The translations under genes were made by a program, and so were the position numbers. Source: an uncultured bacterium (lineage in GTDB: Bacteria; Bacillota_I; Bacilli_A; RF39; UBA660). From it: a stretch of DNA of 47,037 bases. The notes below the pieces were generated by a model, which was not told the DNA's origin, ran no database searches, and saw nothing but the letters and a program-made list of their open reading frames with translations. Every line of letters begins with the position of its first letter. Position 1 is the stretch's first letter. The DNA lies in NCBI GenBank assembly GCA_949292245.1, contig CASEYV010000004.1, positions 1-47,037 on the forward strand, in the 5' to 3' direction. Shown here piece by piece: positions 1 to 47,037 of this stretch.

Positions 1-99
1 AAATATGAAAATTAAATTACTAAAAACGAAAGATAAATATTTATATACATTTGAAAGGTATTGTAGTATAAGTGATTATTTAATAAATGGAAAAGAAAT
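1..99. repeat. 99-bp terminal direct repeat, left copy (circular contig overlap)
   Basis: Bases 1-99 are identical to 46939-47037. The right copy continues the preceding gene without a break, and the ribosome site of the gene at position 5 (GGAGGG) is only visible at the right end. This means the sequence is circular, or circularly permuted, with a unit of 46,938 bp. The size is typical of an assembler k-mer overlap, so a true 99-bp terminal repeat in virions is the less likely reading. Confidence 0.95.
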
Positions 100-40867: not shown

Positions 40868-41560
40868 TTATTCACCATTTTTTAATTTCTTTAGTATTAT
40901 TTTGTGATCTTTTGTTTCGTATTTTTCATAACATTTTTTTAAATCTCGTCTAAAAGTATCGATAGGGTATTTGTAGTATAATGTAGCTTTTGCTTGACTA
41001 ACATTATCATTAACCATATGATCGAGGGTTCTTATAAAATTTTCTTTGTTGCTGTTTTCTTCTCTTGGTCGTCCCAATTTTGTCCCTCTAATTCTGGTAG
41101 CTTTTAATCCTTCTTTAGTTCGTTGGCTTATTCTTTCGCGTTCTTTTTGTGCTGAATAACACATCAATTCTAGTAATTGTTCTTTGATTAGTCTAGTTTC
41201 TAAAGTATCAAGCATCGATTTTCGATTAGGTAAATTATCACTTAAGATAGGTAAGTCAATAATGATAATATTAATGTTGTTATCGTGTAGCCTTTTCCAT
41301 TCGGCTTTTATGCCGTCCCAATCGCGACCTAGTCGATCAATCTCTTTTACAATTAAATAATCATTTGGCTTTAGTTTATTTATTAATATTTGATACTGTT
41401 CACGGTTAAAAGTTTTACCAGTAAAAACATCTTGAAAGATGTTTTCACTAGGTATAATTATGTTGTTTTGTTTTTGCCATTCGATGATTGCTTCATTTTG
41501 TCTGTCTAATTTTTGCTTATTTGTAGACACTCTTTTATAGTAATAAAAATTATTATTCAT
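40868..41560 (-). CDS. Serine recombinase (resolvase/invertase family)
   Basis: The 230-aa protein has a resolvase N-terminal domain with YYYKRVSTNKQ (catalytic Ser12, Arg10), VKEIDRLGRDWDGI and long helix E with ERERISQRTKEGLKA, then GRPRE and a C-terminal HTH region. Its size is that of small resolvases/invertases and not of large integrases. The phage also has a tyrosine integrase, so this enzyme may resolve multimers or invert a segment. ATG 41560 is chosen for GGAGGTG. Confidence 0.88.
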   Translation of the reverse strand: MNNNFYYYKRVSTNKQKLDRQNEAIIEWQKQNNIIIPSENIFQDVFTGKTFNREQYQILINKLKPNDYLIVKEIDRLGRDWDGIKAEWKRLHDNNINIIIIDLPILSDNLPNRKSMLDTLETRLIKEQLLELMCYSAQKERERISQRTKEGLKATRIRGTKLGRPREENSNKENFIRTLDHMVNDNVSQAKATLYYKYPIDTFRRDLKKCYEKYETKDHKIILKKLKNGE

Positions 41561-41808
41561 TAACACACCTCCAAACCTCCGTTTTTTTTGCATATTTCCA
41601 TCATAATATTATAAGCTTTTAATAATTTATAATAGTCTTGTTCATTTTCAGCACTATCAAAGCAATTACCTAAAAAAGCCATTAAGTCGTTGAATAAAAT
41701 CATTATAAATTGATATATCTTAAATTCATCAAGTTCATTTTGAATATTTTCTATAATTTCATCATATTTTTTAATATTTAATTTTTTAAATTTTCCAATA
41801 TTAGACAT
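41560..41808 (-). CDS. Small helical protein (82 aa)
   Basis: The product is helical and acidic (YDEIIENIQNELDEFKIYQFIMILFNDLMAFLGNCF) with a Gly-Gly end, without known family. It is translationally coupled to the recombinase (stop and start overlap) and starts inside the end of the following 24-aa frame. Confidence 0.6.
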   Translation of the reverse strand: MSNIGKFKKLNIKKYDEIIENIQNELDEFKIYQFIMILFNDLMAFLGNCFDSAENEQDYYKLLKAYNIMMEICKKNGGLEVC

Positions 41809-42595: not shown

Positions 42596-42892
42596 TTACT
42601 CTTCATTTTCCTTTCTAGTTGATAAGAATGTTACTTTTTCGGCGATAACTTCTAATTTTTTGTTTTTTTCTAATCTTTGTAATCTTCCTCTAACTCCGAT
42701 TAGGTCGCCTTTTTTTACATATTCTTTTGTAGTTTCTGCGATTGTTCCGTAAATACTAACATCAATGATATCAATTTCATATTCTCCGCTGATATTTTTG
42801 AATGATTGCGGTATTGCTAAAGTAACAATTACCTTTTTTTGTTCTTGTTTTATGTCGTGAACTCGACCTACTAAAATAATTTGATTTAACAT
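42596..42892 (-). CDS. SSB-like OB-fold protein (second SSB)
   Basis: The 98-aa protein starts MLNQIILVGRVHDIK and continues with EIDIIDVSIYGTIAETTKEYVKKGDLIGVRGRLQ, the same OB-fold pattern as SSB but shorter and without the acidic tail. It may bind single-stranded DNA in lysogeny or serve the recombinase operon. GGAGG precedes ATG 42892. Confidence 0.75.
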   Translation of the reverse strand: MLNQIILVGRVHDIKQEQKKVIVTLAIPQSFKNISGEYEIDIIDVSIYGTIAETTKEYVKKGDLIGVRGRLQRLEKNKKLEVIAEKVTFLSTRKENEE

Positions 42893-42928
42893 TTTTTCAT
42901 TCCTCCCAATTAGTCAAGTAAATCACTC

Positions 42929-42957
42929 TTGACATTTTCTAAAATTTAATATATAAT
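42929..42957 (+). promoter_or_regulatory. Consensus promoter of the antisense small RNA
   Basis: TTGACA (42929-42934), exactly 17 bp, TATAAT (42952-42957): a full consensus vegetative promoter on the + strand, divergent from the SSB-like gene and facing the 3' end of the 63-aa peptide gene. Confidence 0.88.
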
Positions 42958-42963
42958 TGGAAG

Positions 42964-43081
42964 CAGGAAAGGAAAAAATCCTTTTCTATATACGACTATT
43001 CTTTTTAAAAGAAATAGTTATATATTATTTTTTTTATTTGAGTTATCTTGTGTTTTTGTGGACTTAAGATAACTCTTTTTA
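42964..43081 (+). ncRNA. Small antisense RNA with intrinsic terminator
   Basis: The predicted transcript of about 118 nt has three hairpins: AAAGGA/TCCTTT (42968-42984), ACTATTCTTTT/AAAAGAAATAGT (42995-43018) and the terminator GAGTTATCTT/AAGATAACTC (43040-43075) with T-run. It carries no credible gene and overlaps the last 77 bases of the - strand membrane peptide gene. Promoter and terminator are both strong, so a constitutive small RNA is likely. Confidence 0.7.
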
Positions 43082-43196
43082 TTTTGTTTGCTAGATTTCT
43101 AAAATCTTTCATAAATAAGTAGTTAATTAGTAGTATGATCGATATAGAAATTATTAGAAATATTGTTATTTCATACAAAATACTTAATATGATCAT
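43005..43196 (-). CDS. Small membrane peptide, type I toxin candidate (63 aa)
   Basis: The peptide has one hydrophobic span (about 3-29, ITIFLIISISIILLINYLF) and a basic C-terminal half (KDFRNLANKIKRVILSPQKHK), the make-up of TxpA/Fst-like type I toxins. It has a perfect consensus promoter, an AAAAAGGAG ribosome site and a short leader of about 40 nt. The convergent small RNA covers its 3' end. No sequence family is recognised, so toxicity is inference. It is also the first gene of the - strand operon. Confidence 0.6.
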   Translation of the reverse strand: MIILSILYEITIFLIISISIILLINYLFMKDFRNLANKIKRVILSPQKHKITQIKKIIYNYFF

Positions 43197-43242
43197 TTTA
43201 TCAACTCCTTTTTGTTGTTCCCTTTCCTTACTTCCTATATAA

Positions 43243-43271
43243 ATTATATCATTTTTTATTTATTTTGTCAA
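43243..43271 (-). promoter_or_regulatory. Consensus promoter of the membrane peptide / - strand operon
   Basis: On the - strand TTGACA (43271-43266), 17 bp, TATAAT (43248-43243). It would produce the peptide mRNA and, by read-through, the SSB-like to recombinase operon, because no other - strand promoter was found before 42892. Confidence 0.88.
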
Positions 43272-46717: not shown

Positions 46718-46946
46718 AGAAAAATGGGCTAGCTTGTTTATACCTAAAAACACACAGTACTGTCATCATAAATTTAAAAAAAGTAAGAAATACGGTATGT
46801 GTGCCAAACCATGTAGATATTTAAAAATAATATATACTAGCGATGATACACCATTAGAATATTGCAAATTGATTAATCAAATATTAGATATACAAGACCA
46901 AGTGAAAGATTGTGGTATTAATGATGATTTTGGAGGGAAAATATGA
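46704..46946 (+). CDS. Small Cys-rich basic protein (80 aa)
   Basis: ATG 46704 follows GAGGTGG. The product has CHHKF, MCAKPCRYLK and later single cysteines, and a basic N-terminus (MKKIKEKWASLFIPKN). A small metal-binding fold is possible. The stop overlaps the start of the gene at the circle junction (ATGA). Confidence 0.65.
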   Translation: MKKIKEKWASLFIPKNTQYCHHKFKKSKKYGMCAKPCRYLKIIYTSDDTPLEYCKLINQILDIQDQVKDCGINDDFGGKI

Positions 46947-47037
46947 AAATTAAATTACTAAAAACGAAAGATAAATATTTATATACATTTGAAAGGTATT
47001 GTAGTATAAGTGATTATTTAATAAATGGAAAAGAAAT
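46939..47037. repeat. 99-bp terminal direct repeat, right copy; 5' end of the first gene
   Basis: Exact copy of bases 1-99. It contains the first 95 bases of the 284-aa gene (from ATG 46943), which is complete at the left end, so it should not be counted as a second, truncated gene. Confidence 0.95.

Follow-up and report, generated by a model that had tools for sequence, protein, structure and literature searches.

The locus described here raises the question of whether a small membrane peptide and an RNA read towards it from the opposite strand form a type I toxin-antitoxin unit, or whether the RNA acts mainly on the genes downstream. We examined it within a 47,037-nt contig from an uncultured bacterium; the window refers to this whole stretch. 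An earlier note had described two perfect TTGACA-17-TATAAT promoters as the only such pairs that it found. Our scan bore this out, as the window contains just these two pairs, which converge across the gene for a 63-aa peptide (Table 1). Dinucleotide-shuffled windows contained a mean of 0.05 perfect pairs, and two together occurred in 0 of 200. The ATG of the peptide ORF is preceded by a GGAG (AAGGAG) Shine-Dalgarno sequence 8 nt upstream, and a Shine-Dalgarno-led ORF of at least 63 aa was found in 0 of 1000 shuffles of the 385-bp region. The single span and basic tail claimed for the peptide were also confirmed: residues 6-24 are hydrophobic (KD19 2.7) and the net charge C-terminal to the span is +8. 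The product is thus a small, hydrophobic, single-span peptide with a charged flank, as is typical of type I toxins.

The + strand sequence predicts an overlapping antisense RNA gene with its own promoter and terminator. The predicted RNA has a folding energy of -33.6 kcal/mol and ends in an 11-bp stem followed by TTTTT (43040-43080). Our simple terminator scan, limited to loops of up to 8 nt, missed this hairpin because its loop exceeds that length. In agreement with the earlier note, the terminator lies inside the peptide gene; the ORF and the antisense RNA overlap by 77 nt (43005-43081), and the RNA is fully complementary to the mRNA over these coding nucleotides and the 3′ flank. The promoters, the Shine-Dalgarno-led ORF and the RNA fold all exceed chance expectation. 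The GC content of the locus is 21%. An inverted repeat, GTCAAG-N9-CTTGAC (42912-42934), is located at the −35 element of the antisense promoter and also in the SSB leader. Two loci described below conserve it, L150 and, in part, L111, and it could be an operator or a leader hairpin.

Table 1. Features of the locus and of the neighbouring operon genes, in window positions.
Feature	Position	Strand	Evidence
Peptide mRNA promoter, TTGACA-17-TATAAT, TG extended −10	43243..43271	-	12/12 consensus match
Antisense RNA promoter, TTGACA-17-TATAAT	42929..42957	+	12/12 consensus match
63-aa peptide with one span and a basic tail, putative type I toxin	43005..43196	-	ORF, Shine-Dalgarno, hydropathy
mRNA leader motif GGAAGUAAGGAAAGGGAAC, recurring at antisense RNA 5′ end	43217..43235	-	
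Antisense 5′ motif GGAAGCAGGAAAGG, twin of mRNA leader motif	42959..42972	+	
Antisense RNA, three hairpins, putative antitoxin	~42963..43081 (~118 nt)	+	fold z -6.1
Antisense RNA intrinsic terminator, within peptide gene	43040..43081	+	inverted repeat I17
SSB gene, second in operon	42596..42892	-	Pfam SSB 4e-12; 57% identical to SSB at matching place in G038
Serine recombinase (resolvase/invertase) gene, last in operon	40868..41593	-	

The two ends of the contig are identical over 99 bp (window 1-99 and 46939-47037), and this terminal overlap shows it to be a circular molecule. Its genes include those for a large terminase, portal and tail proteins, a lysin, an integrase and a repressor-like protein; most functions were assigned by eye from sequence, and the integrase by PHROGs. 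This combination of structural, lysin, integrase and repressor-like genes indicates that the contig is probably a complete temperate phage. The peptide gene is the first of a - strand operon in which it is followed by genes for SSB, proteins of 94, 129 and 82 aa, and a serine recombinase. Because the window promoter scan found no second good-quality - strand promoter ahead of the SSB gene, the peptide and SSB are probably encoded on one transcript. A second, different SSB-like gene is present in the phage at 35341-35730, in addition to that at 42596-42892.

Gene context led to related loci in other phages. A prophage in the host-family genome G038 (G038:C6, L111) was reached via a neighbouring 233-aa phage protein. 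It contains, in the same orientation as the window, a TTGACT-17-TATAAT promoter, a membrane peptide of 66 aa preceded by a similar Shine-Dalgarno sequence, a convergent antisense promoter and an antisense RNA with its terminator inside the peptide gene, followed by SSB, small ORFs and a serine recombinase. An SSB profile search led to the IMG/VR contig L150, in which the unit and gene order match, with convergent promoters, an antisense terminator inside the peptide gene and an 83-aa Shine-Dalgarno-led peptide. Thus, the order peptide, antisense RNA, SSB, small ORFs and serine recombinase is common to all three phages. Conservation of the whole arrangement in L111 and L150 supports the type I geometry, and the layout is real, because other phages keep it in the same place.

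The arrangement is conserved while its sequence has diverged. The segment from the antisense promoter to the SSB start is the best conserved, with 88% identity between the window and L150 and 71% between the window and G038, and the corresponding values for the peptide promoter are 82% and 61%. For the leader and the peptide-coding sequence, identity across the three phages is at chance or close to it, and no mutual relationship was detectable among their peptides. All three peptides overlapped by the antisense RNA are small and predicted to span the membrane, with different charge layouts: a basic tail in the window, a basic N-terminus in G038 and possibly two spans in L150. In L158 (8280-8440), a contig almost identical to L150, a deletion just downstream of the peptide/antisense unit removed SSB and left that unit intact; the recombinase remains. 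In G490 (L166 580-775), the leader of an SSB/recombinase operon contains a convergent promoter pair and a structured antisense RNA with a strong terminator hairpin, and no peptide ORF was found beneath the promoters. The antisense RNA counterparts in L111, L150 and L166 have fold z values of -5.7 to -6.5. The cassette is absent from G347, a related prophage.

The 5′ sequences of the two window RNAs are nearly alike (GGAAGUAAGGAAAGG in the mRNA and GGAAGCAGGAAAGG in the antisense RNA). Because they share this motif, the leader of an mRNA reading past 42,960 could base-pair with the 3′ flank of that mRNA. This pairing, which presupposes an mRNA that extends past 42,960, is predicted at -24.7 kcal/mol vs -11.2 ± 2.2 kcal/mol in shuffles (0 of 1000). 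The shared motif by itself was found at the window locus in 93/5000 and 96/3000 shuffles, with a z value of -1.3 in a stricter 50-nt test. Counted for each locus, the shuffle frequencies were 6/3000 for G038 (0.002), 23/3000 for L150 (0.008) and 96/3000 for the window (0.032). The motif sequence differs in each of the three loci, and such locus-specific versions are what selection for pairing would produce. The 5′-motif repeat in yonT/SR6 was not significant (405/5000 shuffles).

Searches by sequence similarity found nothing usable as a peptide homologue in viral contigs, 85k genomes, 196 relatives or plasmids. The earlier note had suggested looking for homologues beside antisense RNAs in prophages; no peptide homologue was obtained, and what recurred was the same layout in G038 and L150. 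Its statement that the peptide is close to no known toxin family also stands, as none of the toxin models in Pfam, NCBIfam and PHROGs (TxpA/BsrG, YonT, Fst/Ldr, Hol_Tox) was matched. The weak matches to other families in these databases were far below cut-offs and biologically unrelated, and matches in other genomes with E values of about 0.001-0.01 were judged to be chance similarity of hydrophobic stretches. The antisense RNA had no Rfam match, and no DNA similarity was found in phages. Most IMG/VR SSB matches and the SSB neighbours in the genus were without a peptide/antisense unit, and among 282 host-family genomes the window was the sole match to its antisense promoter and SSB leader.

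We also searched by geometry. An IMG/VR scan for convergent perfect promoters 270-300 nt apart, in which the reversed pattern served as the control, returned 50 stretches vs 0 for the control. The matches were mixed: L063, L085 and L095 have small hydrophobic ORFs and shared 5′ ends, and in many others, which are larger phages, a protein gene and a hairpin RNA face each other. We rejected these matches as proof of toxin function because many are other gene/RNA pairs and only a single peptide came near a toxin family (Hol_Tox, E 0.043, below cut-off). In the phage contigs L049, L051, L055, L057, L067, L070, L087 and others among L048-L097, many of them 50-146 kb, a GC-rich hairpin RNA (5′ GGAAAAACGCGCC or similar) has a perfect promoter that faces the promoter of a protein gene, a recurring and unexplained arrangement.

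A stricter scan of 85k genomes required matching promoter geometry together with a Shine-Dalgarno sequence and an ATG. It returned six loci, four from uncultured gut Bacilli/Tenericutes and one each from a Eubacterium and an Oscillospiraceae genome, and in all six the promoter is accompanied by a small hydrophobic ORF. Two more loci, in the host family, were added when the promoter pattern was relaxed slightly. None of the peptides tested from these loci matched a named toxin family, and the loci are therefore candidates rather than controls. L100, L101, L103, L104 and L107 are a candidate small-peptide/antisense family from uncultured gut Bacilli with peptides of 20-22 aa (MQYLVILVIIIILLKQDSKN and MQLIIVFAMIVFYTVVALKSKD) and repeated 5′ ends; the L107 locus is carried by the host-family genome G286. 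Single candidate type I loci are L106 (1501-1846), L105 (7460-7797) and L102 (96-425), with hydrophobic peptides of 24, 34 and 39 aa, respectively, which had no toxin family match where tested.

Comparison with known systems refined the parallel drawn in the earlier note with txpA/RatA and bsrG/SR4 of B. subtilis. The type I layout was upheld, being conserved in independent phages and published for yonT/SR6 (PMC5848175), and it is the latter that the locus resembles more closely, because the unit appears polycistronic and the start of the antisense RNA falls between the peptide gene and the one after it. The locus shares a convergent 3′-overlapping antisense RNA and a phage-borne single-span peptide with txpA/RatA and bsrG/SR4, whereas its peptide differs in sequence and length and its unit is probably polycistronic. 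The yonT/SR6 pair of SPβ consists of a 58-aa toxin on a polycistronic mRNA and an antisense RNA of ~100 nt with a 3′ overlap of ~65 nt, and SR6 overlaps both the yonT 3′ end and the next gene (PMC5848175). Both loci are prophage-borne and encode a peptide of ~60 aa with an N-terminal span and a basic tail, and in both an antisense RNA of ~100 nt, starting between the peptide gene and the next, covers the mRNA 3′ end (~65 nt as published vs 77 nt here). Both also have sigma-A promoters with an extended −10 (PMC5848175; SPβ sequence). On gene order and promoters, the locus has the yonT/SR6-type organisation, a 3′-overlapping antisense RNA in a probably polycistronic phage operon. In contrast to yonT/SR6, the peptide has no detectable family match, the terminator sits inside the coding sequence, and the gene that follows encodes SSB rather than a second toxin.

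The C. difficile pairs CD2907.1-RCd9 and CD0956.2-RCd10 are convergent, overlapping prophage pairs with demonstrated toxicity, and the C. difficile type I toxins have no homology to B. subtilis toxins (PMC6563280). As described, these modules resemble the locus in being carried by prophages of an AT-rich Firmicute and in encoding a hydrophobic N-terminus and a lysine-rich C-terminus; the available text of that report makes no mention of an SSB/recombinase operon (PMC6563280). Because the C. difficile toxins are unrelated in sequence to other known toxins, missing toxin homology weighs little against the type I reading. Long-distance mRNA 5′-3′ pairing, which is possible in the window, occurs in aapA/IsoA of Helicobacter pylori and in hok/Sok (PMC6733600). 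Unlike in those systems, the window pairing does not clearly cover the Shine-Dalgarno sequence and requires an mRNA past 42,960.

On balance, we favour reading the locus as a type I toxin-antitoxin-like unit with yonT/SR6 organisation, situated at the start of the SSB/serine-recombinase operon of a temperate phage. The - strand promoter would produce an mRNA whose first gene encodes a small single-span membrane peptide, and over-expression of this peptide would harm the host membrane or envelope. The + strand promoter would constitutively produce an antisense RNA of ~118 nt. This RNA would pair with the peptide mRNA over its final 77 coding nt and its 3′ flank, and the duplex would be cleaved (by RNase III in Bacillus systems), with loss of the message. 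If the mRNA continued past 42,960, pairing of its leader with its own 3′ flank could keep translation of the full-length message low until processing, as for hok and aapA. Upon phage loss the less stable RNA would disappear first, thereby freeing the peptide. What the sequence shows is the anatomy of the unit, its departure from chance and an arrangement kept despite diverged sequence; transcription, toxicity, pairing in vivo and a role in prophage maintenance are what we infer. Points against the type I reading are the lack of a toxin family match, the unrelated peptides and their differing charge layouts, G490 with no peptide, and the modest motif in the window.

The main alternative, possible though in our judgment less likely, is that the antisense RNA mainly switches the whole operon (SSB, small ORFs and serine recombinase), the peptide being a non-toxic accessory membrane protein or leader gene. 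The antisense RNA and convergent promoter would then block or trim the leader mRNA in the lysogen. The earlier note had raised control of the whole operon, and this is supported as a serious alternative or addition. In its favour, the SSB operon has no other good - strand promoter, the antisense promoter and SSB leader are the best conserved segment, the operon leader of G490 carries the promoters and structured RNA and has no peptide beneath them, and the peptides diverge completely. However, known type I toxins diverge equally fast (PMC6563280), all three overlapped peptides are small and membrane-spanning, and the pair in G490 may have no relation to the others. Moreover, L158 retains the peptide and antisense RNA despite the loss of SSB, although its recombinase remains. 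A type I-like unit and operon control can also coexist.

Small single-span phage peptides often serve in superinfection exclusion or have holin-like roles, which, together with the missing toxin family match, lends support to the idea that the peptide is another such phage membrane protein whose dose the antisense RNA merely tunes. We consider this improbable, as the precise 3′-overlapping antisense geometry is conserved in three phages and no recognised lysis or exclusion gene adjoins the locus. That an AT-rich stretch acquired accidental promoter matches is very improbable. The GC content of 21% does favour promoter-like words, and the window has no overall enrichment of promoter-like sites; against this stand the rarity of perfect pairs in shuffled windows, the absence of matches to the reversed control pattern and, already sufficient to refute it, the conserved loci in other phages.

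Having weighed these alternatives, we retain the type I-like unit as our preferred reading and tentatively add that, in this gut phage lineage, one antisense RNA may jointly control a fast-evolving membrane peptide and the downstream SSB/serine-recombinase operon, with the RNA and its promoter as the conserved core and the peptide exchangeable. If so, one RNA switch would serve both prophage maintenance and the recombination genes. Sequence searches cannot keep up with the divergence of type I toxins; in this case promoter geometry and operon context revealed the module, which recurs in phages of little-studied gut Bacilli with its peptide changed beyond recognition. The outcome is a set of testable toxin candidates and a simple search for convergent consensus promoters, which also turned up several further small-peptide loci within that host group.
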